This document shows, piece by piece, positions 27,587 to 58,849 of a stretch of DNA of 64,000 bases (within the stretch, counting starts at the first letter, position 1; each line of letters starts with the position of its first letter). Source of the stretch: Planctomycetota bacterium (lineage in GTDB: Bacteria > Planctomycetota > UBA1135); contig PAHY01000013.1 in NCBI GenBank assembly GCA_002705055.1, positions 1 to 64,000 on the forward strand. Direction: 5' to 3'. The notes beneath the pieces were generated by a model. The model was not told where the DNA came from. It searched no databases and saw nothing but the letters and a program-made list of their open reading frames with translations. Position numbers and translations under genes: made by a program.

Positions 27587-27602
27587 CCAAGAGGATTGCG
27601 GC

Positions 27603-28904
27603 GTGCCGGTTTTTGATTGGAAGGGCTACAACGCAAAAGGCAAGACGGTCTCCGGAGTCGTCGATGCCGATTCGCCGCGCGATGCCCGCGTCAAGCTGCG
27701 CCGGGACCACATCATGGTCACTCAGGTCAAGCCCGTGAAGGGCTCGGCCGGCGCAGTCGTCAAGAAGAAGGGCAAGGACGAGAAGCCGGCGAAGCGTTCG
27801 CTGTTCTCCTCCGAACTCCAGGAGAAGCTGCGTAAGGCGCGCGGTCGCGGAGGCGGCGGCGCCAAGTCGAAGAAGCGACTGGAAGAAGTCGGCACCTTCA
27901 CTCGACAGCTCTCCACCCTCTCACGCGCGAACATCCCGATCACTGAATCGCTGCGCGCGATCATCGAGCAGACCGAGAATAAGCGGCTCGGCGTGGTCTA
28001 CCGCGACATCCGCGAGCGCATTTCGCAGGGCTCTTCGACCGCCGATGCCCTCTCGGCGCACCCGGACTACTTCGACGAACTGTACGTCGCGATGGTGCGC
28101 TCCGGCGAGGCCGCCGGCAAGCTCGACGAGGTTCTCGAGCGCCTGTCGGTCTTCATGCAGGAGCAGGCGCGGGTCCGCAACAAGGTCGCTGCCGCGCTGG
28201 CCTACCCGATCATCATGCTGGTGGTCGGCCTGCTGATCGTCTCGGTGCTGATGGTCGCGGTGGTGCCCAAGATCACCCAGATGATCAAGGGCCGCGGCCA
28301 GGAGTTGCCCTGGGCGACCCAGTTCCTTCAGGACCTCGCCGACTTCCTGGTCGGCTGGTGGTGGCTGCTGCTGCTGGCCGTGATCTTCGTGGCCCTGCTG
28401 TTCAATCTGTACTACTCCAGCGAGAAGGGCCGGCTCAAAGTCGACACCAAGCTTTTACGCTTCCCCGTCCTGGGCGACATGCTCACGAAACAGGCTTTGT
28501 CGCGGTTTTCGCAGACTTTTGCCACCCTGCTGCGCTCGGGCGTGCCGGTGGTTCGTTGCCTGGAAGTGACCAAGACCGTGCTCGGCAACCGTCTTTTGGA
28601 GAATACGATTGATGGTGTGCGGGAGAAGATTCTCGAAGGCGCCGACATCGCCTCGCCGATCAAGCAATCGGGCGTCTTCCCCCCGCTGGTCGGCTACATG
28701 ATCGCCGTCGGGGAACAGTCCGGTGAACTGGATTCGATGATGGTTCAGGTCGGCGACTCGTACCAGGAAGAGGTCGAGATCGCGACCAACCGATTCACCT
28801 CGCTGATCGAGCCGGTCATCATTTTGTTTCTCGCCCTGCTGGTGGGTTTCATCGTGATGGCGATTCTGATGCCGATCATGCAAATGTCTCAGTCCTTCGG
28901 CTGA
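27603..28904 (+). CDS. gspF: Type II secretion inner-membrane platform protein GspF
   Basis: 433 residues from a GTG with AGAGGA upstream. N-terminal PVFDWKGYNAKGKTVSGVVDA is typical. Two T2SSF domains (about 105-230 and 305-430) are separated by membrane helices (AYPIIMLVVGLLIVSVLMV and WWWLLLLAVIFVALL) with a last helix at the C-terminus. Residues about 50-95 form an unusually Lys-rich linker (VKKKGKDEKPAKR, ARGRGGGGAKSKKR). It anchors the assembly platform and contacts GspE. Confidence 0.95.
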   Translation: MPVFDWKGYNAKGKTVSGVVDADSPRDARVKLRRDHIMVTQVKPVKGSAGAVVKKKGKDEKPAKRSLFSSELQEKLRKARGRGGGGAKSKKRLEEVGTFTRQLSTLSRANIPITESLRAIIEQTENKRLGVVYRDIRERISQGSSTADALSAHPDYFDELYVAMVRSGEAAGKLDEVLERLSVFMQEQARVRNKVAAALAYPIIMLVVGLLIVSVLMVAVVPKITQMIKGRGQELPWATQFLQDLADFLVGWWWLLLLAVIFVALLFNLYYSSEKGRLKVDTKLLRFPVLGDMLTKQALSRFSQTFATLLRSGVPVVRCLEVTKTVLGNRLLENTIDGVREKILEGADIASPIKQSGVFPPLVGYMIAVGEQSGELDSMMVQVGDSYQEEVEIATNRFTSLIEPVIILFLALLVGFIVMAILMPIMQMSQSFG

Positions 28905-28923
28905 TCCCAGCCGAACTCAGCTC

Positions 28924-28939
28924 GCGGCGCCTGCGCCGC
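28924..28939 (+). promoter_or_regulatory. GC hairpin just before gspG
   Basis: GCGGCGC-CT-GCGCCGC, ending 7 bases before the gspG ATG in the 42-base gspF-gspG gap. The gap has no Shine-Dalgarno sequence. The hairpin may protect the downstream mRNA or mark a processing site so that the major pseudopilin can be made in excess. Confidence 0.4.
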
Positions 28940-28946
28940 TTCCGTC

Positions 28947-29366
28947 ATGAAGAAAATGCTCCGTCGTTCTGCTGGCAAGCGTGCCGGCTTCACCCTGATC
29001 GAGATCATGGCAGTCGTCCTGATCATCGGTCTGCTGATCGCCGCTGTGGGCGGTCCGATCGGTCGTGCTCTGTTCAAGGGCACCGAGACTCGCGTCAAGG
29101 CCGACATTCGCACGATTGATCAAGCGGTCAGCTTCTACAAGAACGAGCTCCGCAAGTACCCGGACAGCTGGTCCGATCTGACCGACGCCGAGCCGGAGCC
29201 TTTCCTGAAGGTGATCCCGCTCGACCCTTGGGGCAACGAGTACTTCTACGAGCCGCCGCAGTCGGGTTCTGATTACGTGATCGGCACCTACGGCGCGGAT
29301 GGCAGCCCGGGTGGTGAAGGGGAAGACGCCGACATCACCAACCAGACGATCGAGCAGCGCAACTAG
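28947..29366 (+). CDS. gspG: Major pseudopilin GspG
   Basis: 139 residues. Prepilin site after RAG with FTLIEIMAVVLIIGLLIA (Glu at +5). GspG hallmarks follow: ALFKG, the RVKADIRTIDQAVSFYKNE helix, PDSWSDL, LDPWGNEYFY, and the Ca-binding tail GTYGADGSPGGEGEDADI. It polymerises into the pseudopilus after cleavage by a prepilin peptidase, whose gene is not in the window. Confidence 0.96.
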   Translation: MKKMLRRSAGKRAGFTLIEIMAVVLIIGLLIAAVGGPIGRALFKGTETRVKADIRTIDQAVSFYKNELRKYPDSWSDLTDAEPEPFLKVIPLDPWGNEYFYEPPQSGSDYVIGTYGADGSPGGEGEDADITNQTIEQRN

Positions 29367-29368
29367 CG

Positions 29369-29929
29369 TTGATCCGGGGCCCCCGCACCCGCCAGGGTGG
29401 CTTCACCCTGATCGAGATCATGGCCGTGGTCCTCCTGCTGGGCCTGGCCATGAGCGGGGTTTCGATTGGCCTGGATCGCTTCGTTCCAGGCCAGCAGATC
29501 GACAGCGAGGGGCGGCAGTTCCTGTCGCGGATGGACCTGGCACGCAGCTCCGCGATCGCCGCGGGTCGCCCCTACCGCGTGGTCATTCAGCTCGATGATC
29601 ACGCCTACCGGGTCTTCACCCCTTACGACGAGGAAGGCCGGATCGCGGTCAGCAAGGAAGAGCAGACCGACCTCGGCAAGGAGGTCCTCGAGTCGGGGGT
29701 CAACTTCGCCGGCGTGCTGCTGCCCGGCAGCGACGGTCCGACCACCGAAGGCGAAGTCGAGCTCATCTTCCAGCCCACGGGGATCAGCTATGACGTCGTG
29801 GTCTACCTCTCGAGCGATGGCGGCGAAGCGTACGACAAGACGGCGTTCGTCGGCGGCCTGACCGGCCGAACCGAGCTCTTGGATGGCCACATCGTTCCGG
29901 GGACAGTCCGAGATCAGGATTTCGACTGA
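29369..29929 (+). CDS. gspH: Minor pseudopilin GspH
   Basis: 186 residues from a TTG 3 bases after the gspG stop. Prepilin site GG before FTLIEIMAVVLLLGLAMSG. C-terminal GspH domain with beta strands (PYRVVIQLDDHAYRVF). Its first 26 bases around the cleavage site are almost identical to those of gspG. The next gene begins within its stop codon. Confidence 0.85.
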   Translation: MIRGPRTRQGGFTLIEIMAVVLLLGLAMSGVSIGLDRFVPGQQIDSEGRQFLSRMDLARSSAIAAGRPYRVVIQLDDHAYRVFTPYDEEGRIAVSKEEQTDLGKEVLESGVNFAGVLLPGSDGPTTEGEVELIFQPTGISYDVVVYLSSDGGEAYDKTAFVGGLTGRTELLDGHIVPGTVRDQDFD

Positions 29930-30501
29930 TGCGGCCTCTCCCACCCACCCGCGGCCCGCGCGCCGGCTTCACCCTGATGGAGGTCATGGTGTCGGTCATG
30001 TTGGTGGCGGTGGCGATGACCACGCTGATGCAGCTGCGCCAGGATTCGATCGGCCGAGCTAGCAAGGGTCGGGATATCTCGGTGGCGGCGCGGCTGGCTT
30101 CTCAGCTGCTGCATCGGATCGAGGCCGCCCGGATGCTGGATCTGTTCGATGGCATGAACGGAGACTTCTCCGAAGAGGGCTTCCCGGACTTCAGCTACGT
30201 GGTCGCCCTCGGTGATGGATCGAACTACGCCGAGGACACCAGCGTCGATTCCAACTCGCCGGAGTGGGCCTGGCGCGAGGCGCTGCGCAAGCGCGAGGAC
30301 GACCGGATCGATGAAGAAGGCGATGACCAACGCCCGGAGAAGACCCGCGTCGTGATCCGTGTGACCTACACGGCCTTCGACGACGAGGTCGAAGAGTACC
30401 GCCTCGAGGCCATGATCGACTCCTGGGCGGTCTATCGCGATTTTGAGCTCTACCGCGATCTGTGGGGCTCCAACAACGAGGATCGGGATCAGATCCAATG
30501 A
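29929..30501 (+). CDS. gspI: Minor pseudopilin GspI
   Basis: 190 residues. Prepilin site AG before FTLMEVMVSVMLVAVAMTT (Glu at +5). The globular part is longer than the usual 110-130 residues and carries a strongly charged middle (REALRKREDDRIDEEGDDQ) and tail (NNEDRDQIQ). Position between gspH and gspJ and one-base (TGATG) and ATGA overlaps support the call; sequence alone would only say pseudopilin. Confidence 0.78.
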   Translation: MRPLPPTRGPRAGFTLMEVMVSVMLVAVAMTTLMQLRQDSIGRASKGRDISVAARLASQLLHRIEAARMLDLFDGMNGDFSEEGFPDFSYVVALGDGSNYAEDTSVDSNSPEWAWREALRKREDDRIDEEGDDQRPEKTRVVIRVTYTAFDDEVEEYRLEAMIDSWAVYRDFELYRDLWGSNNEDRDQIQ

Positions 30502-31376
30502 TCGTGCGCGCATCTTCTCGCCTTCGTGCCGGCTTCACCCTGATGGAGGTGCTGGTCTCGATGTTCATCAGCGCGCTGATCATGACCGCGATCCTCAACT
30601 CGCTGGAAGCGACTCAGAAGGCGGTCGATGCGATCCACAACATCACCGAGACCGAGCGCGCCGGCCCCATGCTGGTGCGGATGTTCCGGCGCGATCTCGA
30701 GCGCCTCGCGGTCTACGATTCCGGCGAGTACACCCTGCTCAAGGGCGAGTCGAAGAACCTCAACGGCGTCGACGCCGACCGGATCAACATGATCGTGGTG
30801 GGTCGCTCGGTGATCCCGCACTACGACCTGGTGCTCGACCGGCGCACCTACGCGCCGATCAACGAGGTCGGCTACTGGGTGCGCAACCGCGATGGTTCAG
30901 CCGACTTTCTTGAGCTTTATCGGCGCGAGGATTTCCTGGTCGATGATGAGTTCGATCGAGATGGCAACTTCTCGATGCTGAACAATCGAATCATCAGCTT
31001 CAACCTGCAGTACTACGACGAGCCGGACTACGACCCGGTCCCCGAGGACAATTGGGATTCCACCCTCGAGGCCCAGCTCCCCTACTGCATCGAGCTGTTT
31101 CTCGAGCTCGAGATCCAGCCCCGCAAGTCGGCCGAGAGTCGGCAGATCCTGGGCGCCAACCGCGCGCGGCTCGAGTTCGGGGATCTCATGGTGATCCCGG
31201 AGTCCACCCGCTTCCTGTTCCGCAATCGCCTCCATCCGGTGGTGCCGGGCGTCACCATGGGCGGCGCTTCAGGGGCCGGCGTGGACAGCGCCGCCAACCC
31301 GACCGACAGCGAGCTGCAGGACATCGGCGACTCGTCGGGCGTCAACGTGAACACCAGCACGACGCGCGGCGGCTAG
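30498..31376 (+). CDS. gspJ: Minor pseudopilin GspJ
   Basis: 292 residues from the ATG overlapping the gspI stop. Prepilin site AG before FTLMEVLVSMFISALIMTA, then the GspJ-like helix ERAGPMLVRMFRRDLERL. It is about 80 residues longer than usual GspJ, with an acidic loop (about 140-200) and a Gly/Ser/Thr-rich disordered end. Last gene of the operon; gspC, K, L, M and the peptidase are not here. Converges on serS. Confidence 0.82.
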   Translation: MIVRASSRLRAGFTLMEVLVSMFISALIMTAILNSLEATQKAVDAIHNITETERAGPMLVRMFRRDLERLAVYDSGEYTLLKGESKNLNGVDADRINMIVVGRSVIPHYDLVLDRRTYAPINEVGYWVRNRDGSADFLELYRREDFLVDDEFDRDGNFSMLNNRIISFNLQYYDEPDYDPVPEDNWDSTLEAQLPYCIELFLELEIQPRKSAESRQILGANRARLEFGDLMVIPESTRFLFRNRLHPVVPGVTMGGASGAGVDSAANPTDSELQDIGDSSGVNVNTSTTRGG

Positions 31377-31389: not shown

Positions 31390-32661
31390 CTAGCTTTCGC
31401 CCAGGTACTCGGCCCCGAAGCGGGCCTGCAGCACTTCCGGAACCCGGACCCGGCCGTCTTCCTGCTGGTGATTCTCGAGCAGCGCGATCAGGACGCGCGG
31501 CGAAGCGATCACCGTGTTGTTCAGCGTGTGACAGTGCACCGGCTTTGCCCCGTTCTCCGGGCGGTAGCGCAGCTGCAGTCGGCGCGACTGGAAGTCGTAG
31601 AAACGGGAGGCCGAGTGGGTCTCCCCGTAGTTCCCGCGGCTGGGCATCCAGGTCTCGATGTCGAACTTCTGGACCTGTCCCTGGCCGAGATCCCCGGTGC
31701 AGACGTTGACGACCCGATACGGGAGCTCGAGCGCGTCCATCAGATCGGTGGCGTGCGCGAGCATGCGCTGATGCTCTTCCGTGGACCAGGCTTCGTCGGC
31801 CGGGCCGATCACGACCTGTTCGACCTTCCAGAACTGGTGGACGCGGTAGAGCCCTTTGGTGTCCTTGCCGTAGGTGCCCGCCTCGCGGCGGTAGCAGGGG
31901 CTCATCGCGACGCGCCGAATCGGCAGCGCCTCCGCGTCGAGGACTTCACCGGAATGGATCGAGGTCAGCGGCACTTCGGAGGTGCCGACGAGCGCCAGCT
32001 GATCGCGCTCGGCCATGTACGCCTGCTCTTCGCCGCCCGGGAAGTAACCGGTGCCCTCCATGCAGGCATAGCTCACCAAGGTCGGGACCGAGACAGGCTC
32101 GAAGCCGCGCTCGATCATGTGATCCATGGCGTACTGCAGCACGACCTGCTCGAGTCGGGCCAGCTGCCCCAGCAGCAGGTAGTTGCGCGAACCGGCGATC
32201 TTGACGCCGCGCGGGATGTCGAGCACCCCGTGCATCTCGCCCAGCTCGATGTGGCTGCGCGGTTCAAAGCCGAAGTCCGGGACCTCGCCGACGCGCCGCA
32301 GCTCGACGTTGTCGGTGTCGTCCTTGCCGTCGGGCACCTCCGAGGACGGCGGCATCGGCAGCAGCAGCGCCAGCGCCTGGTGCTCGGCGCGCAGCGCTGA
32401 CTCCTCGGCCTCACGCTCCTTGAGCACGGCCTTCATCTGCTTCTGCTCGCCCAGCGCCGCTTCGCGCTCTTCGGGGCTGAGCTTGCCGATCTTCTTCGAA
32501 GCGACCTTCAGCTCGGCGCGCATCGATTCGACGACCTGCTGCACCTCGCGCAGCTTCTCGTCGATGCCAAGGAAGGCATCCACGTCGACGGAAATCCGCT
32601 TGCGCTCCGCGGCATCGCGGACGGCAGCGGGGTTCTCACGGACCCACTTCAGGTCGAGCAT
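31390..32661 (-). CDS. serS: Seryl-tRNA synthetase
   Basis: 423 residues. N-terminal antiparallel coiled-coil arm (about 30-105) and class II core: VPTLVSYACMEGTGYFPG, the TSEVPLT serine-site loop, motif 2 CYRREAGTYGKDTKGLYRVHQF. Motif 3 reads HTLNNTVIASPRVLIALLE instead of the common LNGSG-x-AVGR form; the Arg that contacts ATP is kept. It charges tRNA-Ser and tRNA-Sec with serine. It lies 50 bases behind the secreted-protein gene on the same strand. Confidence 0.96.
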   Translation of the reverse strand: MLDLKWVRENPAAVRDAAERKRISVDVDAFLGIDEKLREVQQVVESMRAELKVASKKIGKLSPEEREAALGEQKQMKAVLKEREAEESALRAEHQALALLLPMPPSSEVPDGKDDTDNVELRRVGEVPDFGFEPRSHIELGEMHGVLDIPRGVKIAGSRNYLLLGQLARLEQVVLQYAMDHMIERGFEPVSVPTLVSYACMEGTGYFPGGEEQAYMAERDQLALVGTSEVPLTSIHSGEVLDAEALPIRRVAMSPCYRREAGTYGKDTKGLYRVHQFWKVEQVVIGPADEAWSTEEHQRMLAHATDLMDALELPYRVVNVCTGDLGQGQVQKFDIETWMPSRGNYGETHSASRFYDFQSRRLQLRYRPENGAKPVHCHTLNNTVIASPRVLIALLENHQQEDGRVRVPEVLQARFGAEYLGES

Positions 32662-47709: not shown

Positions 47710-48756
47710 TCAGGCTTCCAGAAAGGACTTTCCGTTGGTGTTCCACCAGGTCGTCCAGGCGTCGTAGGCCTGCTTGCGCTTGGCCTCGGTGCCGTTGTGG
47801 TCGTAGCGGAAGTTCTGACCAGTAATCAGCCGTAGGCTCTGGACCGCCGCCTGGCGGACAAAGCCGATCTCATCCATCAGCGCCTCGACCAGGTGCGGGA
47901 CCGAGGGCTTCGAACGCCAGTCCCCCAGGGTCTTCGCCGCGTAGAAACGGTTGAACTCGTAAGGGTCGGTCAGCATCGGAATCAGATGCGGGACCAGCCG
48001 GGCGTCTTCCTGGGTCGACAGCTTCTCGAGCGCGTCCAGCCGCTCGTCCTGGTCGCTGGAGCGCAGCTGACGGACCAGTCCGGCGATCGCGGGCGGGAAC
48101 TCTTCGGCGCTGCCCTCGCCGCTGCCGGCAGCCGGGCCGCGGGCGGCCAGATCGCGCTGCGTGGCCTCGAGGGTGTCGAGGCGGTCGCGCAGCGCCGAAG
48201 CCACCCCGCGCTGTTCGGCCAGACGCTCGGTGGCGAGCGTGAGTTCGGCCTCGGACTTACCGAGGCGACGGCCCAGGGCGTCGATCTCGAGGGCGAGCTG
48301 GCCCAGCTGCTCGGTTTCCTCCTGCAGGCTGCGCAGCCGCCCGTCCATGGTCTCTTCCACCGAGCTCAGGCGGTCGCCCAGTTCGTCGATCTGAGCCGCG
48401 GTCAGTCCGGATTCACGATCGATGGCGGTGAGCACCTCCTGGATCTTGTCCTCGACGGTGCCGGCGTACATCTTGGCCTGCACTTCGAGGGTATCCGCCG
48501 TGTCTTCCCGCAGCCGCTGGCGCGCCTGATCGCCGTCCCACCAGACGTAGCCGGCTCCACCCAACGCGATCACCGCGAGGAAGAAGGCCACCAGGCCGCC
48601 GCCCCCGCCGCTGCTCCGGCCGCCCTCGACGACGCCGAGCAGGCCCATGCAATCCGGGCAGACGGACCGCTCTCCCTGCACCACGGCATTTCCGGAGTCG
48701 ACTTCGGCCTGAGGGACAGAGACGCCACAGACGGTGCAGAAGTGAAGCTCAGCCAT
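47710..48756 (-). CDS. Membrane protein with zinc ribbon, coiled coil and HEAT repeats
   Basis: 348 residues from MAELHFCTVCGVSVP; the open frame upstream of this ATG has no family features. A CxxC ... CxxC ribbon (CTVC, CPDC) at residues 7-40, a membrane helix GLVAFFLAVIALGGAGYVWW at about 55-75, a long coiled coil (about 80-215) and two to three HEAT repeats at the C-terminus (LVPHLIPMLTDPYEFNRFYAAKTLGDW, PHLVEALMDEIGFVRQAAVQSL). No known family name. It follows two pilin-related membrane genes and precedes mdh. Confidence 0.72.
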   Translation of the reverse strand: MAELHFCTVCGVSVPQAEVDSGNAVVQGERSVCPDCMGLLGVVEGGRSSGGGGGLVAFFLAVIALGGAGYVWWDGDQARQRLREDTADTLEVQAKMYAGTVEDKIQEVLTAIDRESGLTAAQIDELGDRLSSVEETMDGRLRSLQEETEQLGQLALEIDALGRRLGKSEAELTLATERLAEQRGVASALRDRLDTLEATQRDLAARGPAAGSGEGSAEEFPPAIAGLVRQLRSSDQDERLDALEKLSTQEDARLVPHLIPMLTDPYEFNRFYAAKTLGDWRSKPSVPHLVEALMDEIGFVRQAAVQSLRLITGQNFRYDHNGTEAKRKQAYDAWTTWWNTNGKSFLEA

Positions 48757-48829: not shown

Positions 48830-49444
48830 TCAACGCCGACTGAGCGTGCGAAGCTCCGGAATCGGCGCATCCGGGCCGAAGGGAAGCGCGTCTGAGGCCC
48901 GCTGCTCTGGGCTCAAAAGGCCTGCTTCCACCAACTCCTCAGCGGACAGCCAGTCCGTCGAGCCGTCGCCGCGCAGGAGCCAGATCTGCCCACGTGGCGT
49001 GATCCGCGCGCTGGCGGCCAGGACGAGATCGCGTGATGGATGCGCGAGCTGATCCCGCAGCGACGGATCCCCGAAGTCATCGAAGGCCGCGAATCCCAGG
49101 ACCGCAGCTTCGGTCCTCGCTCGCTCGAGATCCCGCTCGGCCGCTTCCTTCGAGCGATCCGGCCATTCGTGACCAGGGAAGAAACGCAGAGGCGAAAGAC
49201 TTCCCTGCCTGGCCCGATCGGCATCCCAGAGCGCCAGCAGGAAGTCCTCGCCGTTGCCCGGCGGCCACTGCTGCTCGTGCTCATTCCGATACATCATCAG
49301 TTGGGAATAGAGCTCACGCAGCTGGATCCGCTCAACCGGCTTGGGCGGCCCACAGCCCTCCGGACGGTCGACGAAAAGGGCGACCGCCCCGGTGGAGCCA
49401 ATCAGGAAAACCAGGCCCAGAGCCAGCCGCAACCAATCAGTCAT
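48830..49444 (-). CDS. Membrane-anchored relative of the pilin-like protein, third member
   Basis: 204 residues from MTDWLRLALGLVFLIG, one N-terminal helix with no prepilin site. The following domain aligns with the two paralogues at 49437-50243 and 56876-57571: RELYSQLMMYRNEHEQQWPPGNGEDFLLALW, then a stretch with FFPG, DPSLRDQLAHP, and the ending PIPELRTL. It is the most divergent of the three. The 5' end overlaps its neighbour by 8 bases. No function known. Confidence 0.65.
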   Translation of the reverse strand: MTDWLRLALGLVFLIGSTGAVALFVDRPEGCGPPKPVERIQLRELYSQLMMYRNEHEQQWPPGNGEDFLLALWDADRARQGSLSPLRFFPGHEWPDRSKEAAERDLERARTEAAVLGFAAFDDFGDPSLRDQLAHPSRDLVLAASARITPRGQIWLLRGDGSTDWLSAEELVEAGLLSPEQRASDALPFGPDAPIPELRTLSRR

Positions 49445-50243
49445 TCGACACGGTGCGAAGCTGCGGGATCGGCGAGCTCGGCCCGACCGGAACGATGCCC
49501 GCGTCGATGTCGTCCTGATGAAGCAAGCCCTGCTCCAGCAGCTGGTCGATCTGCAGCGCATGCACCGCACCATCGGCGGTCATGTAGACGATCGCGTTGC
49601 GATGCGCGAAGGTCGCGTTCGCCAGGATGGTGACCTCATGCGGGTGCGTCATCATCCGCGCGCGCAAGCTGGGATCGTGCCGAGTATCCAGCGCCGCGTA
49701 GTTGATCATGCCGGGCATCAGACTGCTGCGGTCGGAGAGGTACTCCACCACCGACTGCTCATGCGGATCAAGTCCAAGCAGGGCCAGGTACTCGGTCGCG
49801 TTCTCGCTGGCCGAGAAGAAGCGCTCGGCCTCTTCCTGGGTCCGCCGCACGGTCCCCTCCCACCAAAGCTCCAGCAGGAAAGCCTGACCGTTTCCACGAG
49901 GCCAGCGCTGATCGTTGGCGTTCAGGTGCATCATGAAGTGCACGTAGTGCTGCCGCATTTGCGCCTTCTCCGCCGCCACCGTCGATTCGGCGATCGCTTC
50001 ATGAACCGATTGCCTGGAGTCGACGAAGACCAGCGTTCCGACCAGGGTCAGCAGCCCGAGAACGACCAGCTGCGAACCAAAGCCCAGCGCCAGGAGCAGG
50101 GCGAGAGCCAGGACCCAAAGCAGAGCCCCGGTCCCGACGGCCACCGATTCGGCGGGCGCGGGCTCCTGCCCCAGGGCCAGGCCCGTCAAGCCGAGGGCGA
50201 CGGCCACGATCAGCAGGAGGAGACGCAGGGTGCGAGGGCTCAC
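49437..50243 (-). CDS. Membrane-anchored relative of the pilin-like protein, second member
   Basis: 268 residues from a GTG. A signal-like helix (RLLLLIVAVALGLTGLALGQ), then two more hydrophobic stretches (about 40-75), then a domain that is roughly half identical to the pilin-like protein at 56876-57571: MRQHYVHFMMHL, RWPRGNGQAFLLELW, RFFSASENATEYLALLGLD, INYAALDT, TILANATFAHRNAIVYMT and SPIPQLRTVSND. It has no prepilin cleavage motif. It is 52 bases behind mnmA on the same strand. Confidence 0.68.
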   Translation of the reverse strand: MSPRTLRLLLLIVAVALGLTGLALGQEPAPAESVAVGTGALLWVLALALLLALGFGSQLVVLGLLTLVGTLVFVDSRQSVHEAIAESTVAAEKAQMRQHYVHFMMHLNANDQRWPRGNGQAFLLELWWEGTVRRTQEEAERFFSASENATEYLALLGLDPHEQSVVEYLSDRSSLMPGMINYAALDTRHDPSLRARMMTHPHEVTILANATFAHRNAIVYMTADGAVHALQIDQLLEQGLLHQDDIDAGIVPVGPSSPIPQLRTVSND

Positions 50244-50295
50244 GAACCCAGCCTAGCAGGCCAAACCGGCCCCCCGACCTGCGCGGTCAGCTGCT

Positions 50296-51399
50296 CTAAA
50301 CCCGCATTTCCACGGCCGGCGTCGCCTCGTGGAGCCAACCGCCGCCCAGCAGCCGGTCGCCGCGATACACCGCCAGCCCCTGACCCGGGGTGACGCTCTC
50401 GGCCGGGCGGGCGAACTCGATGCGGACCCGCTGCTTGCCCAGGCCCTCGACGCGCGCCGGCACCCCGCCGGGCGAGCTGCGGTACTGCACCGTGACCTCG
50501 TCCCAGACCTCGCCCTCGGCAAGCGAGCAGCCAAAGCCACGAAATTCCGCGACCGTCGCGACCGCGCAGCCGGTCGCCGCGCGCGGGCCGACGATCACAT
50601 CGCCGGTGTCCGGCCGAATATCGACCACGTACATCGGCTCGGTGGCGGCGAAGCCCAGCCCGCGCCGCTGGCCCCGGGTGAATCCCATGTAGCCCTCGTG
50701 CCGGGCCCGCTCCTTGCCGTCGAGGTCAACGATGCGGCCGGGCTTACCGAGCCCGCCGCGCTTGCGCAGCACATCGCGGTAGTCGCCGCTGGGGACGAAG
50801 CAGATCTCCTGGCTGTCTGGCTTACCGAAGACCGGCAGCCCGGCTTCTTCCGCGATCCGGCGCGTCTCGGACTTCTGAAGCCCGCCGACCGGCAGCAGCG
50901 TGCGCGCCAGAATAGAGGGCGCCACCGGGAACAGCACGTAGGACTGATCCTTGTGGGCGTCGGCGCCGCGCAGCAGCTCGGGGCCCTGTTCGCCTTGGCG
51001 GATCTGAGCGTAGTGGCCGGTCGCGATCCACTGCGCGCCGATGGCATCGGCGAAGTCCGCCAGCGCGCCGAATTTGATGTCGCGGTTGCAGACCGCGCAG
51101 GGGTTAGGGGTGCGGCCGGCCGCGTACTCGTCGTGGAAGTAGTTCTGCACGGAAGCGAACTCCTCGTGCATATCGACGGCGTGGTACGGAATGCCGAGTT
51201 GGTCGGCAACCAGCGCGGCATCCCGGGCGTCTTCGGCCGAGCAGCAGCCCTGCTTGGTCGAGCAGGATCCAGCCGGCCGGCTGATCCCGTTGCGCAGGAA
51301 GCAGCCGACCACCTCGTAGCCCTGCTGCGCGAGCAGCAGAGCGGCGACGCTGGAGTCGACTCCGCCCGAAAGGGCGACCAGAACGCGTTCGGAGCTCAT
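50296..51399 (-). CDS. mnmA: tRNA 2-thiouridine synthase (MnmA/TrmU)
   Basis: 367 residues from MSSERVLVALSGGVDSS; the frame stays open upstream but overlaps the yajC region. PP-loop SGGVDSSVAA, first catalytic Cys in NPCAVCNRDIKF, second in DSQEICFVP, and FTRGQRRGLG. It makes s2U34 in tRNAs for Glu, Gln and Lys. Divergent from yajC with an 88-base gap that holds a palindrome. Confidence 0.95.
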   Translation of the reverse strand: MSSERVLVALSGGVDSSVAALLLAQQGYEVVGCFLRNGISRPAGSCSTKQGCCSAEDARDAALVADQLGIPYHAVDMHEEFASVQNYFHDEYAAGRTPNPCAVCNRDIKFGALADFADAIGAQWIATGHYAQIRQGEQGPELLRGADAHKDQSYVLFPVAPSILARTLLPVGGLQKSETRRIAEEAGLPVFGKPDSQEICFVPSGDYRDVLRKRGGLGKPGRIVDLDGKERARHEGYMGFTRGQRRGLGFAATEPMYVVDIRPDTGDVIVGPRAATGCAVATVAEFRGFGCSLAEGEVWDEVTVQYRSSPGGVPARVEGLGKQRVRIEFARPAESVTPGQGLAVYRGDRLLGGGWLHEATPAVEMRV

Positions 51400-51442
51400 C
51401 GGATGCGCACCGCGGACCAGGGCGGCGCTAGACTGACTCGCC

Positions 51443-51471
51443 ATTTTCGCACGAACCTCCGTTCGTGCCAA
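51443..51471 (-). promoter_or_regulatory. Candidate sigma-70 promoter of mnmA
   Basis: Minus strand TTGGCA (51466-51471), 17-base spacer, GAAAAT (51443-51448). The spacer is almost entirely filled by the palindrome at 51449-51468, so a protein bound there would block RNA polymerase. Confidence 0.45.
51449..51468. promoter_or_regulatory. LexA-box-like palindrome between mnmA and yajC
   Basis: GCACGAAC-CTCC-GTTCGTGC, an 8-bp perfect inverted repeat with a 4-base centre. The inner CGAAC-N4-GTTCG equals the core of the LexA (SOS) box of Firmicutes and Actinobacteria. It overlaps a candidate mnmA promoter. It may instead be a hairpin in a transcript. On the other strand the yajC gene begins at 51488 and has a TAGACT box at 51429-51434. 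Confidence 0.5.
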
Positions 51472-51487
51472 CGGAATCAACAGACCT

Positions 51488-51913
51488 GTGATTGAGTTCC
51501 TCCAGCAAGGCGGCGATTCCTTCGCCCCGCCCTCCACCCTCGGCGACGCCCCGAGCCTGAACGCCACCACCGAACAGTCGGGAGGCGCGGCCGGCGGAGC
51601 CAACGGGGGCGCGCAGCCCTCGCCGTACGGCGGCATGTGGATGCTCGGCCTGATGTTCCTGGTGATCTGGATGTTCCTGATCCGCCCGGAGCGCAAGCGT
51701 CAGCGCGAGGCGCAGCAGATGCGCGACTCGATCAAGAAAGGCGACGCGGTCGTGACCGCGGGCGGCATCCACGGCAAGGTCGCCGCCATGGACGAAGCGA
51801 CGCTCACCCTGGAGGTCGCGGACAAGGTGCGGATCAAATTCAACCGTAACGCTGTGGCCGCGGTCTCGTCTTCCGAGAAGAAGGCCGAAGCCAAGGAAGA
51901 GAGCAAGGAGTAG
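51488..51913 (+). CDS. yajC: Preprotein translocase accessory subunit YajC
   Basis: 141 residues from a GTG; longer than the usual 90-110. A Gly/Ser/Ala-rich N-terminal stretch of about 45 residues comes before the membrane helix MWMLGLMFLVIWMFLI, followed by RPERKRQREAQQMRDSIKKGDAVVTAGGIHGKV, the family signature. It binds SecDF-YidC. secD and secF are not in the window. Confidence 0.92.
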   Translation: MIEFLQQGGDSFAPPSTLGDAPSLNATTEQSGGAAGGANGGAQPSPYGGMWMLGLMFLVIWMFLIRPERKRQREAQQMRDSIKKGDAVVTAGGIHGKVAAMDEATLTLEVADKVRIKFNRNAVAAVSSSEKKAEAKEESKE

Positions 51914-51948
51914 TCCTCGCTCCTGGGTGGCGGCCTGGTGTCGCGCCC

Positions 51949-52332
51949 ATGAGTTCCTCCGATCCCCGTCACGTCCTCGGCCAGCGCGCCGAGGACTTTG
52001 TCCATCAAGCGCTGTGTGCGGCGGGCTGGCAGTGCTGGGCGCGCAACACGCGTGCGCTGCACGCCGAGGTGGACTGGCTCGGCCTGCCTCCTGCCGGCGA
52101 TGTTCTGGTCGCCATCGAGGTCAAGGCGCGCCACGAGCTGGATCCCGGCCACCCCGGCGACTGGCTGCGCTGGCGTCAGCGACGGCGGCTCGCGCGCACG
52201 CTGGAGGCTCTGGCGCTGCGCTGCAATTGGCCGGGGCCGGCGCGGCTGGATCTGGTCACGGTCACGGTCGTGGCTGGCCAGCCAGTCGCCTGGGAGCATT
52301 GGCCAGACGTGCTCGACGGGAGCGGCCCCTAG
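51949..52332 (+). CDS. YraN family endonuclease-like protein
   Basis: 127 residues. ARNTRALHAEVDWLG (the family form is ARNxRxxxGEIDL, so Gly is replaced by Ala-Glu here but the acid remains) and VAIEVKAR form the restriction-endonuclease-like catalytic core. The role of UPF0102 proteins is unsettled, perhaps in DNA processing. Its TAG stop overlaps the TAG of the convergent lipoprotein gene inside CTAG. Confidence 0.8.
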   Translation: MSSSDPRHVLGQRAEDFVHQALCAAGWQCWARNTRALHAEVDWLGLPPAGDVLVAIEVKARHELDPGHPGDWLRWRQRRRLARTLEALALRCNWPGPARLDLVTVTVVAGQPVAWEHWPDVLDGSGP

Positions 52333-54140
52333 TCCGTCTTCTGCCGCGCCTTCAGCATCAGCTGGCTCACGACCTCGCCCGGGATCGGCTGAATGCTCTG
52401 TTCGGCCAGCAGGCTCCGGGCCAGCTCTGCCAGCTGCGCTTCGCTGCGAGAGTGCCAACGCGCCAGCGCCGGCCAGCCGGCGGCGCGCGCGTGCATGACC
52501 AGCTCGCGCATCAGGCGGCGATACGGGCGGAAATAGGGCTGGCCGGGGTCTTGGGCGGTCTCGATCGTCTGCGCCAGCAGCAGCTTGGCGCGCGGGCCCG
52601 CCGCCAGCGCACGGAGCTGCGCGCGATACTCCCAGTCGGCCAGGACCCAGCCATCCTGAAACCACGACCCGACCGCGCGCTGCAGCTGGCCCCACCAGGC
52701 CGGGTTCTGGCCGCTCGCAATCGGCAGGACATCGGGGAGATGGCCCAGCTCATGCAGCAGGAGCGCCTCCCACTCGGCCTGTTCGGCGGTTGCGGCTTCC
52801 TCGGCAAGCAGCTGCGCCCGTAGACGCAGGCCCAGGTCGAGGCTCTCCGGCAGCGCCCCCGGAAGGTCCGGAACATCGACTCCGGACCAGGGATCCGTTG
52901 CGACTCCGGCGGGAAGCTCCCAGCTACTCAGGCGCTGCGCACGACGTTCCCAGGCGCGGGCCGTCCGGGCATTCAGATCGCGGCGGACGAAGAAGCCGCG
53001 GAAGACCGCCCCGCCGCTGACCCAGCCGGCCTCGCCGCGCGCGTCCGCGGCGCTCACGATCTCGACGGCCTGCTCGAGGCCCGGCCAGTCCAGCGACCAG
53101 CGTTCGACCCCGCGCAGTTCCACCGCGCGCGCTCCCTGGAGCCAGCTCCAGCCCACCAGGACCAGCCGCTGATGCCGATGCAGCAAGGCGCTGAGCTCGC
53201 CGGCGTCGAGTTCAGGGCGCAGCAGCAACCCGGCGCCGAAAGGAAGGCGATACATCGGGCTGTTGCCCCAGACGGCAGGGAGTCCAAGGTGCAGCGCCCA
53301 GCCATCCATCCGCGCGAGAAGCTCCGGCAGGCCGATCTGCGGCGCATAGGCGAGCTGCGCGTGCATCCGCTCCAGCAGTAGGTCCAGCGCCTGCTGCTCC
53401 TCCGCCGAGCCAGGTGCGACCGGGCTCGCGGCGGGTGGCTGACTGCGCAACGCGCGATCCGCGGCCGCGACGCGGATGATCGCCTCGGCGCCGGCCCGCC
53501 GAGCCATCTGCTCCAGTTCGCTGAGCGCTGCCGGGGATCCGTGGTCGAGCGCCGCGTCGAGGAGCCCCCGCCACGGGCGCGCTTCGCCTTGGGCTTCGCG
53601 CAGCCGCGCTTCGATCAGGCTGCGGAAATCGGCCGCGTCCGGCCAGGGCGGAGCCTCGCGCAGGTGCACCGCCGCCGCCTGCAGTTCGCCGTTCTGCAGG
53701 CAGGCCCCCGCCGCGCCGAGCCGGATCCAGGCATGCCGCGGATGGGCCTGCGCCAGCTCTTCGAAACGATGCAGGAGCCGCACCGGGTCCTCCAGGAGCC
53801 GCGCGTGCAGATAGGCCCGATCCGGGTCGAAGGGGGCTTCGGCGAGCCGTGCCGCGGCCTCCTTCAGCAGTCCCGCCCGTTGTCCGAGGAGCAGCAGCTC
53901 GGCCTGGTGGTAACGCTCCCCTTCAATCGAACCGGTGGCTTCCCAGCGCGCCTCCCAGGCCAGCTGACGGCTCGCGGCGGTGTCGCCGCGCCAGATGGCG
54001 GCCCAGAGCGCCTGGGGGTGAAAATCTGCCGGCGGGGTTGGCCCGGCGGCGAGAGTCTGGCAGGCAGCGGTCAGGAAGGCGAGGCCGAGCGCGACGGCCA
54101 GCCACCGTGCTTGTGCCCAGACCGCCTCGCAGCTTCTCAC
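52329..54140 (-). CDS. Putative zinc-protease lipoprotein with TPR-like repeats
   Basis: 603 residues from a GTG that overlaps the ribD stop (GTGA). Signal peptide with lipobox LTAAC (Cys27). Residues about 40-270 are helical, Ala-rich and TPR-like. The C-terminal part carries LLLHELGHL (HEXXH; His463, Glu464, His467) and a candidate third ligand Glu504 in LADWEYRAQ, 37 residues later, as in gluzincins. It may therefore be a surface or outer-membrane metalloprotease. The family is unknown to me; HEXXH alone can occur by chance. Confidence 0.6.
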   Translation of the reverse strand: MRSCEAVWAQARWLAVALGLAFLTAACQTLAAGPTPPADFHPQALWAAIWRGDTAASRQLAWEARWEATGSIEGERYHQAELLLLGQRAGLLKEAAARLAEAPFDPDRAYLHARLLEDPVRLLHRFEELAQAHPRHAWIRLGAAGACLQNGELQAAAVHLREAPPWPDAADFRSLIEARLREAQGEARPWRGLLDAALDHGSPAALSELEQMARRAGAEAIIRVAAADRALRSQPPAASPVAPGSAEEQQALDLLLERMHAQLAYAPQIGLPELLARMDGWALHLGLPAVWGNSPMYRLPFGAGLLLRPELDAGELSALLHRHQRLVLVGWSWLQGARAVELRGVERWSLDWPGLEQAVEIVSAADARGEAGWVSGGAVFRGFFVRRDLNARTARAWERRAQRLSSWELPAGVATDPWSGVDVPDLPGALPESLDLGLRLRAQLLAEEAATAEQAEWEALLLHELGHLPDVLPIASGQNPAWWGQLQRAVGSWFQDGWVLADWEYRAQLRALAAGPRAKLLLAQTIETAQDPGQPYFRPYRRLMRELVMHARAAGWPALARWHSRSEAQLAELARSLLAEQSIQPIPGEVVSQLMLKARQKTD

Positions 54141-55312
54141 CGCGCGTTCTCCCCCTCGCTCGGGGCGACCAGGAAAGCGCGGCGCAGCTCCGCCCCCCAG
54201 CCGCGTTCTTCGGGCATCGTCAGCTGCAGCGCCATCTGCGGACTGGCAAACGAGGGGCCCGCGCAGGCGGCCCGACCGCCGCCGAGCAGGATCGGAGCCT
54301 CGTAGCGCACCACGGCATCGACCAGGCCGGCCGCCAGCAGGCTGCCATGCAAGCGCGCCCCGCCTTCGACCAGCAGACGCCGGACACCGGACTGCTCGCG
54401 CAGCGCCTGCAGCACCGCCGCAAGGTCCAGGCCCTGCTGGCCGCGCGCGACCCGCAGGATCGGGTCCTGATGCTGCATCAGCGCAGCCGCGGGCTCTTGC
54501 TCGGGGTCGAGAACCCAAAGCCGGGCGGCTTCGCCCGCGAAGATCCGGGCATCCGCGTGCACGGCATCCCCGCCGCCCACAAGGACGCGCAGCGGCTGCC
54601 GCGTCGGGGCGGCCTGCCTGAGCCGCGGCGGGCCGTCCTGCGGTCGCGCATCCAGACTGGGGTTGTCCGCACGCAGGGTGCCGGCGCCGGCCGCGACGGC
54701 ATCCGAGCAGGCGCGCAGCGCGTGGACTTCGGCGCGCGCGTCCGGCCCGGTGATCCACTGGCTCGTTCCGTCGTCGGCGGCGAGCTTGCCATCCAGGCTG
54801 GCAGCCCACTTCAGCAGCACCCACGGCCGCTCCGGGTGCTGCAGGCCGCGCAGAAAGGCCGGATTGAGCGCGGCGAAGCGCGCCGAGGCTTCGGAGGCCT
54901 CGGCCTGCACCACTTCGACCCCGGCCTCTTCGAGCACCCGCAGACCCGCGCCCTGATGGCGGGGATCGGGATCGGTCGCCGCGCAGACGACTCGCCGCAC
55001 CCCGGCGTCCAGCAGCGCCTGCGTGCAGGGAGGCCGCTTCTTCCCGGTCGCCGAACAGGGCTCAAGCGTGACCACCACTTCGTCAACCACGCCGGGCCGG
55101 GCGCGGTTCTGCTCCTCGTCCCAGGCCCCGGCGTCGCGCAGCGCGGCCTCTTCGGCATGCGAGCCGCCGTAAACCGCGTGGTGCCCGTAGCCGATCACAT
55201 GACCCTGCGCGAGCGCCAAGGCCCCGACGCGCGGGTTGGGGGCGGTCAGCAGCCAGCTCGCGCGCGCGGCCTCGTGCCAGGCCTTCTCGAGCAGGGCCTG
55301 ATCGCGCGCCAT
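54137..55312 (-). CDS. ribD: Bifunctional riboflavin biosynthesis deaminase/reductase
   Basis: 391 residues. Deaminase half: PNPRVGALAL, zinc ligands in GGSHAEEAAL and EPCSATGKKRPPC (His and two Cys). Reductase half: KWAASLDGKLAA, GAGTLRADNP and VEGGARLHGSLL. Converts the GTP cyclohydrolase product toward the ribitylamino-uracil precursor. Starts on the last base of the miaB stop. Other rib genes are not in the window. Confidence 0.96.
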   Translation of the reverse strand: MARDQALLEKAWHEAARASWLLTAPNPRVGALALAQGHVIGYGHHAVYGGSHAEEAALRDAGAWDEEQNRARPGVVDEVVVTLEPCSATGKKRPPCTQALLDAGVRRVVCAATDPDPRHQGAGLRVLEEAGVEVVQAEASEASARFAALNPAFLRGLQHPERPWVLLKWAASLDGKLAADDGTSQWITGPDARAEVHALRACSDAVAAGAGTLRADNPSLDARPQDGPPRLRQAAPTRQPLRVLVGGGDAVHADARIFAGEAARLWVLDPEQEPAAALMQHQDPILRVARGQQGLDLAAVLQALREQSGVRRLLVEGGARLHGSLLAAGLVDAVVRYEAPILLGGGRAACAGPSFASPQMALQLTMPEERGWGAELRRAFLVAPSEGENAR

Positions 55313-56793
55313 CAGACTTGGAACTCGGAAGGCGCCGGAGTGGCCGCGTCGTGCGCGGAAGCGGCCGGAGCCGCAGCGGCCGCAGCAGGCGGAATCGACG
55401 CCACGCGGGTCAGCTCCTTGCCCTGGCGCGGCGCCCCGAGCGCGCGACCGATCAGGCTGCGCCCGTCGTGCTCGACCAGCTCGATCTCCAGCTGCATGCC
55501 GGCGTCATAGCCGTCCTGGTCCGGGACCACCACCGGGTGCCCGGTGTGGGTCCTTCCCGCCCAATGGCCCGGGTGACGCTTGGCGCCCTGCTCGAGCATG
55601 GTGCGGGTGCGCTTCCCGACCTCGTGCGGCGATTTTGCGTAGGCGAGTTTGCGCTGCAGCGCTAGCAAACGGTTGTTGCGCTCTTTCTTGACCTCGGTCG
55701 GGACGTTGTCCTCGATCTCGTAGGCGCGCGTACCCGGACGCGGCGAGTACTGGAAGACGTAGCTCTGCAGAAAGCCGATCTCGCGCAGCATCCGCTCGCT
55801 CTCGAGGTAGTCCTCGTCGGTCTCGCCGGGGAAGCCGACGATCCAGTCCGAGATCAGCTCGAGGTCCGGCATGCGCTCGCGCAGCAGATCGACGCGCTTG
55901 CGATACAGCGAGGTGTTGTAGCCACGCTTCATGGCCTTCAGCACCCGGTCGCTGCCGGCCTGCAGCGGAATGGGCAGAAAGCGCATGAACTGGGGCGAGC
56001 GGGCCATCGCATCGGCCAGTTCGGCGTCCACGTAGCTGGGGTGCAGCGTGATCATGCGCAAGCGCAGCAGCTCGTCGATCGGCGCCAGCTCGTCGAGCAG
56101 GCGGGCCAGGCTGGGGCGCTCATCTGAGGGCAGATCGCGGCCGTAGCTGTCAACCGTCTGGCCGAGCAGGTGCACCTCGGTCACGCCCTGATCGACCAGG
56201 CGCTTGACCTCGTCGACGATCTCGACCAGGGGGCGGCTCTCGACCCGGCCGCGCACGCTGGGCACGATGCAGTAGGTGCAGTTCAGATCACAGCCGCGCA
56301 TGACCGCGACGTGCGCCGACCAGTGCGCCGGACGACCAGACAGGTCGCGCACCGGAGCGTCGACCGCGGAATGCGCTTCGCCCAGCTCGCAGACCCGTTC
56401 CTCGCCGCCGAGGACTCGATCGATGAAGCTGTCGAGCTGCGGGAAGTGACGCGATCCACAGACGATGTCGACGTGCGGTTCGCGGTCAAACAGCTCCTTG
56501 CCTTCGCGATCGGCCATGCAGCCGATCACCCCGATGACCAGATCGGGGCGCTCGCGCTTGGCCCGGCGCAGCTCCCCCAGCAGACCGTGGACCCGCTCTT
56601 CTGCCCCTTCTCGGACCGAACAGGTGTGAAACAGCACCACATCCGCCTGATCCGGGTCGGCGCTTTCCTGGTAGCCGCGCCCCAGCAGCGAAGCTCGCAT
56701 CAGCTCGCCGTCGTAGAAGTTCATCTGACAGCCAAAGACACGCAGGTGGAAACTGCGTGCATCGCTGCGGCTCTGAGGGAGGGTGGCGGACAT
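55312..56793 (-). CDS. miaB: tRNA-2-methylthio-N6-dimethylallyladenosine synthase
   Basis: 493 residues. MTTase domain cysteines in FGCQMN, HTCSVRE and IGCMAD; radical-SAM cluster GCDLNCTYC (CxxxCxxC); TRAM domain near 400-450. A 45-residue Ala/Pro-rich tail follows, longer than usual. It adds the methylthio group to i6A37 of tRNAs that read UNN codons. First gene of miaB-ribD-lipoprotein, placed after a terminator. Confidence 0.96.
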   Translation of the reverse strand: MSATLPQSRSDARSFHLRVFGCQMNFYDGELMRASLLGRGYQESADPDQADVVLFHTCSVREGAEERVHGLLGELRRAKRERPDLVIGVIGCMADREGKELFDREPHVDIVCGSRHFPQLDSFIDRVLGGEERVCELGEAHSAVDAPVRDLSGRPAHWSAHVAVMRGCDLNCTYCIVPSVRGRVESRPLVEIVDEVKRLVDQGVTEVHLLGQTVDSYGRDLPSDERPSLARLLDELAPIDELLRLRMITLHPSYVDAELADAMARSPQFMRFLPIPLQAGSDRVLKAMKRGYNTSLYRKRVDLLRERMPDLELISDWIVGFPGETDEDYLESERMLREIGFLQSYVFQYSPRPGTRAYEIEDNVPTEVKKERNNRLLALQRKLAYAKSPHEVGKRTRTMLEQGAKRHPGHWAGRTHTGHPVVVPDQDGYDAGMQLEIELVEHDGRSLIGRALGAPRQGKELTRVASIPPAAAAAAPAASAHDAATPAPSEFQV

Positions 56794-56818
56794 GGTCCAG
56801 CGCGCATGATAGCCGACG

Positions 56819-56860
56819 CAACAAGAAAGCCGGCTGCCCCCGCGCGAGGGACAGCCGGCT
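56819..56860 (-). terminator. Intrinsic terminator after the pilin-like gene
   Basis: AGCCGGCTGCCCC (56828-56840) pairs with GGGACAGCCGGCT (56848-56860), 12 of 13 pairs, 7-base loop. On the minus strand TTTCTTGTTG follows. It lies 15 bases after the pilin-like stop, so it ends the secA-waaA-metK-ahcY-pilin run, and the miaB group needs its own promoter. Confidence 0.78.
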
Positions 56861-56875
56861 GCGTCGAGCTTGCGC

Positions 56876-57571
56876 CTAGTCGTTGGTGACCGTCTGCAGC
56901 TCGAGAATCGGCGAGCCCTGGCCCACCGGGACGTAGCCCGCGTCGATGTCTTCCTGGGTGAGCACACCCTCGTCGAGCAGGTTTTGGATGTTCAGCTCGT
57001 GGACCTCGCCGTCGGACGTCATGTAGACGATCGAGTTGCGGTGCGCGAAGGTCGCGTTGGCCACGATCGTCACCGTCGACGGCGCGTTGTTGAGCTTCCG
57101 GCGTAATGTCGGGTCGCCCTGCGGGTCGAAGGCAGCGTAGTTAATGTGGCCTGGCTGAATCGAATCCCAGTCGGTGAGGTACTCCAGCACCGACATCTCA
57201 TTGGGATCCATGCCCAGGGTGGCGAGGTACTCGGTGGAGTTCTCACCGGCGGAGAAGAATCGCTTGGCGTTCTTATCCGAGCGCTCGACCGTGCCGTCCT
57301 TCCACAGCTGCAGGATGAACTTCTGCCCGGTCCCGGTCGGCCAGCTCTGGTTGTTGCTGTTCTTGTACATCTGCAACCAGGTGTAAAGCTCGCGCATGTT
57401 GGCCTTCTCAGACGTCACGCTCGCCTGCCCCATCGCATCCATGATGTTCGGGACCAGGAAGGCGGCCAGCAGCCCGATGATGCCGATGACGACCATCATT
57501 TCGAGCAGCGTGAAGCCGGCACGCAGCGCGTGCGTGGCGGGGTGGAGAGCGTGACGGGTGGAGACCTTCAT
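56876..57571 (-). CDS. Type IV pilin-like / pseudopilin-like protein
   Basis: 231 residues. Prepilin motif RAG before FTLLEMMVVIGIIGLLAAFL (Glu at +5), so it should be cut by a prepilin peptidase. The globular domain (about 55-231) is not GspG-like: RELYTWLQMYKNSNNQSWPTG, KRFFSAGENSTEYLATLGMD, NYAAFDPQGDPTLRRKL, TIVANATFAHRNSIVYMT and the end SPILELQTVTND. The proteins at 49437-50243 and 48830-49444 share this domain but have other anchors. It starts 6 bases after ahcY and is followed by a terminator. Confidence 0.82.
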   Translation of the reverse strand: MKVSTRHALHPATHALRAGFTLLEMMVVIGIIGLLAAFLVPNIMDAMGQASVTSEKANMRELYTWLQMYKNSNNQSWPTGTGQKFILQLWKDGTVERSDKNAKRFFSAGENSTEYLATLGMDPNEMSVLEYLTDWDSIQPGHINYAAFDPQGDPTLRRKLNNAPSTVTIVANATFAHRNSIVYMTSDGEVHELNIQNLLDEGVLTQEDIDAGYVPVGQGSPILELQTVTND

Positions 57572-57577
57572 CTGAGC

Positions 57578-58849
57578 TTAGGTGCCTTGGCTGTAATCGG
57601 TAGCGTACGCGATCTGCTCGGCGGTGAGCTCGTCGATTTGGATACCCATCGACTCGAGCTTGATGCCCGCGATCTCCTGGTCGAGCTCCTCGGGCAGCTC
57701 GTGGACGCCCTTGCCCAGCGATTTGCCCTTCTCGGCCAGCATCATCATGGCCTGGAATTGGTTGGCGAAGCTCATGTCCATGACCTCCGAGGGGTGGCCC
57801 TCGGCGGCCGCGAGGTTGACCAGGCGACCATCCGCCAGCACGTAGATGCGGCGGCCGTCCTGCAGCGTGTACTCCACGCAGTTATCCCGCATCTGGCGGG
57901 TGGATACAGTGATGCTCTTGAGATCTTCGATGTTGATCTCGCAGTCGTAGTGGCCTGTGTTGCACACCACGGCGCCGTCCTTCATCGACTCGAAGTGACG
58001 CTTGACCAGGACGTCCTTCATCCCGGTCGCGGTGATAAAGACATCGCCTTGGGCGGCGGCTTCGTCCATGGTGAGCACGCGGATGCCCTCCAGGGTGGCC
58101 TTCAAGGCGGCGGTCGGCTTGATCTCGGTGGCGATCACGTTGGCGCCCATGCCCTTGGCCCGCATCGCGCAGCCCTTGCCGCAGTGGCCGTAACCGGCGA
58201 CGACCAGGTTCTTGCCGGCGAGCAGCACCGAGGTGGCGCGCAGGATGCCGTCGAGGGTCGACTGGCCGGTGCCGTAGACGTTGTCGAAGTCCCACTTGGT
58301 CTCGGCGTCGTTGACGGCGATGACCGGGTACTCGAGCTTGCCGTCTTCGGCCATGGCGCGCAGACGGTGCACGCCGGTGGTGGTCTCTTCCGAGCCGCCG
58401 ATGATGCCGTCGAACAGATCCGGGTGCGCGCTGTGCACGCGGAAGATCAGGTCGGCGCCGTCATCGAGCGTGAGGGTCGGCTTCTGATCCAGAGTGCGGT
58501 CGATCGACCAGTAGAAGTCCTCGGTGCTCTGGCCGTACCAGGCGTAGATGCCGATCCCCTCTTCTGCGAGCGCCGCCGCGACCGCGTCGTGGGTCGACAG
58601 CGGGTTGCAGCCACTCCAGGCCACCTGAGCGCCCGCAGCCTTCAGGGTGCGGATCAGAACGGCGGTTTCCTTGGTGACGTGCAGGCAGCCGGTGATGCGC
58701 TGTCCGGCGAGCGGCTTGGTCTTCTCGAACTTCTCGCGCAGCTTCATCAGCACAGGCATGCGGCTTTCTGCCCAGTCGATGAGCAGTCGGCCCTCAGCGG
58801 CCAGCGAGAGATCGGCGACTTTGTAGTTCGTGTCGGTTGCGGTAGTCAT
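57578..58849 (-). CDS. ahcY: S-adenosylhomocysteine hydrolase
   Basis: 423 residues from MTTATDTNYKVADL. CLHVTKETAVLI, the Glu/Asp/Lys-rich AVNDAETKWDFDNVYGTGQS with the NAD site VVAGYGHCGKGCA, and GHYDCEINIE. Shorter than the 460-470-residue proteobacterial form because the approx. 40-residue insert is missing, as in archaeal and thermophile types. Removes SAH to keep SAM methylations running. Directly behind metK. Confidence 0.96.
   Translation of the reverse strand: MTTATDTNYKVADLSLAAEGRLLIDWAESRMPVLMKLREKFEKTKPLAGQRITGCLHVTKETAVLIRTLKAAGAQVAWSGCNPLSTHDAVAAALAEEGIGIYAWYGQSTEDFYWSIDRTLDQKPTLTLDDGADLIFRVHSAHPDLFDGIIGGSEETTTGVHRLRAMAEDGKLEYPVIAVNDAETKWDFDNVYGTGQSTLDGILRATSVLLAGKNLVVAGYGHCGKGCAMRAKGMGANVIATEIKPTAALKATLEGIRVLTMDEAAAQGDVFITATGMKDVLVKRHFESMKDGAVVCNTGHYDCEINIEDLKSITVSTRQMRDNCVEYTLQDGRRIYVLADGRLVNLAAAEGHPSEVMDMSFANQFQAMMMLAEKGKSLGKGVHELPEELDQEIAGIKLESMGIQIDELTAEQIAYATDYSQGT

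Follow-up and report, generated by a model that had tools for sequence, protein, structure and literature searches.

In a 64,000-nucleotide stretch of a Planctomycetota genome (the window; GTDB lineage UBA1135, GenBank assembly GCA_002705055.1, contig PAHY01000013.1, positions 1 to 64,000 of the forward strand), three genes encode proteins built on the same soluble domain, the "head". The first, P1, is by its sequence a prepilin-type protein, with the G|FxxxE cleavage/methylation motif and a hydrophobic stretch. The other two, P2 and P3, carry the head without the prepilin leader. Sequence comparison establishes that the three are homologous, that the leader has been lost from P2 and P3 while their head has been conserved, and that the same loss has recurred in the class to which this genome belongs.

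56876..57571, minus strand: P1, prepilin-type protein of 231 residues; open reading frame (ORF) confirmed
49437..50243, minus strand: P2, leaderless paralog of 268 residues with a GTG start; ORF confirmed
48830..49444, minus strand: P3, divergent leaderless paralog of 204 residues; ORF confirmed

One head domain behind different N-termini

A first-pass annotation of this DNA had assigned one shared domain to the three genes, and homology searches agree. With P1 as the query, its own genome returns P2 (E = 3e-72) and P3 (E = 7e-21), and the remaining matches (E >= 2.8e-5) are limited to the generic pilin N-terminus. Identity to P1 by alignment is 51% for P2 and 30% for P3; in the own-genome search, P2 and P1 are 54% identical from residue 24 onward. 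The strings quoted for all three proteins fare less evenly: W-P-x-G-x-G is indeed common to them, but the others occur in two of the three. RELYxxLxMY is found in P1 and P3, P2 reading RQHYVHFMMH; ANATFAHRN is found in P1 and P2, P3 reading ASARITPRG; and the terminal TV is TL in P3.

The prepilin peptidase site attributed to P1 is corroborated by scores above the cut-offs of N_methyl PF07963 (25.2 bits, cut-off 21.2) and TIGR02532 (27.9 bits, cut-off 16.3). The leader is 19 residues long and ends in ...LRAG, followed by FTLLEMMVVIGIIGLLAAFL. The AlphaFold2 (AF2) model displays a long helix, alpha-1 (residues 23-72), and a soluble head with a four-strand sheet, and the head carries an H-X9-DG motif (H177...DG188). 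Neither P2 nor P3 is recognised by any Pfam or NCBIfam model, N_methyl included; both possess hydrophobic helices instead, in keeping with the annotated "ordinary" membrane helices. In P2, two extra hydrophobic helices (3-24 and 31-52) are followed by the equivalent of alpha-1 (58-109) and an intact head; it reads 'GFGSQL' in place of 'GFTLLE'. P3 has a single N-terminal membrane helix (LRLALGLVFLIGSTGAVALFV) and a shortened head, and has lost the His of H-X9-DG. A hidden prepilin motif had been named as the observation that would speak against this arrangement; none was found near the starts of P2 and P3, in any frame or from other starts.

The AF2 models of P1 (predicted local distance difference test score, pLDDT, 93.1) and P2 (87) contain identical elements in identical order, P2 adding its two N-terminal helices. 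A Foldseek comparison of both models with the PDB returned nothing better than E of about 1 and no pilin among the matches, and the head profile found no credible match among PDB sequences. The GC content at third codon positions (GC3) is 0.90 for P1, 0.84 for P2 and 0.74 for P3. The P2 stop and the P3 start overlap by 8 base pairs within ATGACTGA; the pair thus looks like one transcription unit, located between mnmA and a HEAT-repeat gene.

Thirty-two pilin orthologs and six leaderless proteins were aligned column by column. The leader columns G(-1), F1, T2, L3 and E5 are conserved in 31-32 of the 32 pilins and in none of the six leaderless proteins. In contrast, P78, G82, F85, L87 and W90, conserved in 28-32 of the pilins, are retained in all six, as is A146; Y145 is kept in all except P3, and D187, G188 and G217 wherever the sequence is complete. 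The lost invariants therefore concentrate in the leader. P2 retains all the head invariants, the G, F, T, L and E of the leader all being lost, and P3 retains equivalents of P78, G82, F85, L87, W90, A146, D187, G188 and G217. Codon differences between P1 and P2 at positions 1/2/3 (0.39/0.24/0.53) follow the order expected under purifying selection, and those between P1 and P3 (0.56/0.46/0.57) are flat or saturated. On this measure P2 looks constrained, and constraint on P3 is uncertain.

A class-wide pilin and the recurrent loss of its leader

The order and the class were searched through the same 154 genomes, and loci were taken from part of these, mainly close relatives and genomes with extra copies. 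Among the 67 distinct sequences obtained, 19 are devoid of the leader motif; they come from 16 genomes in four families (f1, f5, f7 and f8). On the tree, left unrooted for the counts, nine state changes are needed, at least four of them forced by starred (well-supported) branches, and grouping all leaderless proteins in one clade is rejected (p = 5.7e-5). Leader loss has thus recurred, with at least four independent events in the class as judged from the sequences. The cases comprise the f1 set, G046 (f5), G031 and G035 (f7), a starred clade of nine (f8), and G084.

These copies differ in their surroundings and in their anchors, which are lipoprotein-like, single-helix or multi-helix. In G046, the leaderless copy lies in tandem with the pilin (L060:4514-5843) and retains an alpha-1-like helix. 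The nine f8 genomes (L148-L155) harbor a leaderless copy, in several cases beside a prolyl oligopeptidase and/or a MoCF-domain gene, and close relatives among them use either a lipobox or a signal anchor. Their neighbours (prolyl oligopeptidase, MoCF gene, aminotransferase) give no functional clue. Matches to the lipobox, scored with the PROSITE PS00013 pattern, are found in 5/19 leaderless proteins and 0/48 pilins. All single copies examined carry matched pilin leaders.

Two genomes possess copies of a less usual kind. The second copy of G031 (G031b, MGAKYSE; L070:6768-7730) reads MGAKYSEQIVIIGAIVILALF. It retains the G-1...E5 spacing, has lost F1 and T2, and contains an extra inserted hydrophobic stretch; because the spacing is kept, this copy may represent an intermediate, or a form that is still processed. 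In G084 the head occurs in two additional copies (L158:7579-8487 and L157:7942-8841), in one of which about 130 in-frame residues, unlike any membrane anchor, stand ahead of the head.

The pilin form itself is widespread. The head domain is present in 142/154 genomes at E <= 1e-7 and in 143/154 at E <= 1e-6, so that the search proposed in the first-pass annotation does find the domain across the order and class, with varied anchors among the leaderless copies. It is found in all 53 of the most complete, clean assemblies of the class, and in one copy in most genomes. Over the phylum it occurs in 93 of 342 genomes, being more distant and patchy in other planctomycetes. In this analysis the phylum was assigned from a relative with 68% identity, isolate NIOZ-UU23. 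In family f1, the P1-type pilin always lies between sahH and miaB, in the gene order secA-kdtA-metK-sahH-pilin-miaB-ribD, with sahH directly upstream in every f1 genome whose locus extends far enough. P1 is the ancestral form of the family in this class. Nearly all genomes of these largely uncultured planctomycetes have a P1-type gene, mostly in a single copy, which makes it a marker of the class; it adjoins housekeeping genes and not secretion genes.

57578..58849, minus strand: sahH, directly upstream of P1; f1 synteny, name from reading the sequence, no family search
55312..56790, minus strand: miaB, directly downstream of P1 in f1; synteny, name from reading the sequence, no family search

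Origin and possible role of P2 and P3

P2 and P3 occupy an interval between two further genes.

50296..51402, minus strand: mnmA, upstream neighbour of P2; synteny, name from reading the sequence, no family search
47710..48756, minus strand: HEAT-repeat protein, neighbour of P3; HEAT_2 PF13646, E = 7e-10

In the relatives G013 and G007, mnmA abuts the HEAT-repeat gene, and no family member was found between the two in G025, G012 and G005. In G008, a contig end holds two leaderless copies that immediately precede HEAT; in G011, one copy stands at a contig end. The tree pairs P2 and P3 as sisters (support 96/97), nested inside a starred clade of eight members (100/96) that also contains the pilins from G000, G008 and G011. 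This nesting, together with the interval lacking a family member in relatives, gives the direction from pilin to leaderless form. The near-universal, syntenic P1 form likewise points to loss, as copies of the P2/P3 type occur in few genomes and are inserted in the mnmA-HEAT interval.

The HEAT-repeat protein displays a zinc-ribbon-like N-terminus, a transmembrane helix, a coiled coil and HEAT repeats. In f5 (L044/L068, L045/L071, L060, L132 and L134), the gene next to the pilin itself encodes a relative, with 34% identity over 118 residues. This adjacency to different family members suggests a function shared with the pilin family. With relatives beside the pilin in f5 and beside mnmA in f1, the protein encoded at 47710-48756 may be a functional partner.

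As regards processing, topology and binding, we infer the following course. P1 would be cut after Gly19 by the single prepilin peptidase and assembled by type II secretion system (T2SS) or type-4-filament machinery. The genome encodes 25 N_methyl proteins and gives one prepilin peptidase match, on another contig, and the window contains a cluster that could be the assembly machine.

25853..31376, plus strand: T2SS-like cluster with gspE, gspF and four pseudopilin genes (28977, 29384, 29959, 30519); ORFs read, N_methyl matches
ending at 25856: gspD, upstream of gspE; the whole gspD-E-F cluster spans 23500-31400

A P1-type pilin would have been duplicated into the mnmA-HEAT interval, giving rise to P2 and P3, which have kept the head and lost the cleavage Gly, Phe1 and Glu5. 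Their N-terminus would have become an ordinary uncleaved membrane anchor, with two extra helices in P2 and one in P3. Such proteins would be unable to enter the filament and would remain fixed in the membrane with a periplasmic head. As predicted immobile counterparts of the pilin head, they would most likely serve for docking, as receptors or in regulation, binding at the membrane the partner or ligand that the pilin head binds. Elsewhere in the class, such conversions have yielded lipoprotein-like or signal-anchored heads. That P2 and P3 are membrane-fixed, non-polymerising pilin heads derived from a duplicated P1-type pilin, probably binding the partner or ligand of its head, is the explanation we favor, with somewhat better than even confidence. 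Several observations weigh against it. The head has no known partner or ligand, and no solved structure resembles it. Topology is judged from hydropathy and AF2. The five f1 leaderless copies form no supported clade, a single origin not being rejected (p = 0.27). P3 is highly divergent, its head is incomplete and without the motif His, and since its codon-position pattern against P1 is also flat, it may be drifting.

An alternative, to which we grant a lesser though real chance, is that the head is an independent ligand- or wall-binding module, for which pilin, lipoprotein and signal anchor are alternative means of display at different envelope layers, P2 and P3 having no interaction with P1. 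The anchors do vary from case to case, the lipobox being confined to leaderless proteins; the nine copies from f8 group in a single clade, and several of these lie next to the prolyl oligopeptidase and/or MoCF gene, away from pilus genes; and in Tuwongella immobilis, SBP_bac_10 proteins with different leaders are found in different cell fractions (PMC8567305). However, the head contains no known catalytic or binding motif besides H-X9-DG, and almost every genome examined has it behind a filament-type leader. It is improbable that P2 and P3 are merely functionless, decaying duplicates of P1. P3, shortened, long-branched (1.55 in the tree) and with flat codon-position differences from P1, would fit decay, as would the restriction of P2 and P3 to one small f1 clade, but P2 keeps every head invariant and has changed most at third and least at second codon positions. 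Both ORFs are moreover intact, with the GC3 values given above, and overlap as a coupled pair; G008 has a pair at the same position before HEAT, and nine f8 genomes have retained their leaderless copies.

More improbable still is that P2 and P3 are processed as unusual prepilins at a non-canonical site such as LG|FGSQL of P2. P2 does keep a 'GF' at the start of its alpha-1-equivalent helix, but it is devoid of Glu5, and in place of a short charged leader it has about 55 residues that include two hydrophobic helices; P3 shows no motif in any frame. The first-pass annotation had left open whether duplication was accompanied by loss or by gain of the leader; duplication and loss stand, and gain, with the leaderless form as ancestor, is given hardly any credence. 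State changes counted on an unrooted tree cannot alone give direction, but the pilin form occurs almost universally, mostly in one copy and in synteny, with matched leaders on all single copies examined, and the leaderless forms are scattered, nested and inserted.

Beyond P2 and P3, the favored explanation of membrane-fixed heads can be extended, tentatively, to the whole class: a pilin head would repeatedly be freed from the filament, its duplicate becoming a lipoprotein or signal-anchored protein at the membrane, on which the pilin docks or by which it is regulated, and filament subunits would have turned into fixed envelope receptors time and again. We regard this extension as possible and a good deal less certain than the case of P2 and P3 itself. 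Accounts of type 4 filament evolution usually have pilins diversify within the filament; here, the head has repeatedly left it to become a fixed envelope protein. As the pilin form is still present in the same genome as the leaderless copy, a non-polymerising role of the pilin head can be tested by comparing paralogs.

Comparison with known families

The H-X9-DG motif recalls the H-X9-DG-CTERM family (TIGR04294, pre_pil_HX9DG). It occurs in 36/48 pilins and 12/19 leaderless proteins, against 2.3% in shuffled sequences. At the motif, f8 members score as high as 17.2 bits against this model, below the cut-off of 19; P1-P3 give no match, their own genome having sub-threshold matches elsewhere only. 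Membership is not claimed, because the model also gives below-cut-off matches in most control genomes (10/14). P1 resembles GspG (TIGR01710) as well, residues 19-80 matching its N-terminal half (E = 5e-13). The score is 49.1 bits against a cut-off of 88.85, and the head is unmatched. P1 was hence rejected as a GspG major pseudopilin, being below the equivalog cut-off and matched in its N-terminal part only. In addition, its gene is not part of the T2SS cluster, which already includes four pseudopilin genes.

The closest likeness is to the SBP_bac_10/DUF1559 family (PF07596) of Planctomycetales, also a planctomycete family with a prepilin leader on most members and another or no leader on a few. 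PF07596 has no match in P1-P3 and none in the whole genome at E <= 1e-10, and a search over 16 genomes returned too few members for a profile comparison. In Tuwongella immobilis, most SBP_bac_10 proteins carry N_methyl and a few have a Sec/signal peptidase I (SPI) leader or none, and the type of leader tracks the cell fraction (PMC8567305). The earlier statement that no such set had been described is thus too strong. A literature search, limited for subscription papers, brought up no paper on the P1 family or on its repeated leader loss, and on our analysis the SBP_bac_10 variation appears as a looser precedent. The Tuwongella family is hugely expanded, with 91 two-domain proteins, and repeated leader loss is not described for it (PMC8567305), whereas the P1 family usually comprises one pilin per genome and has lost its leader repeatedly.

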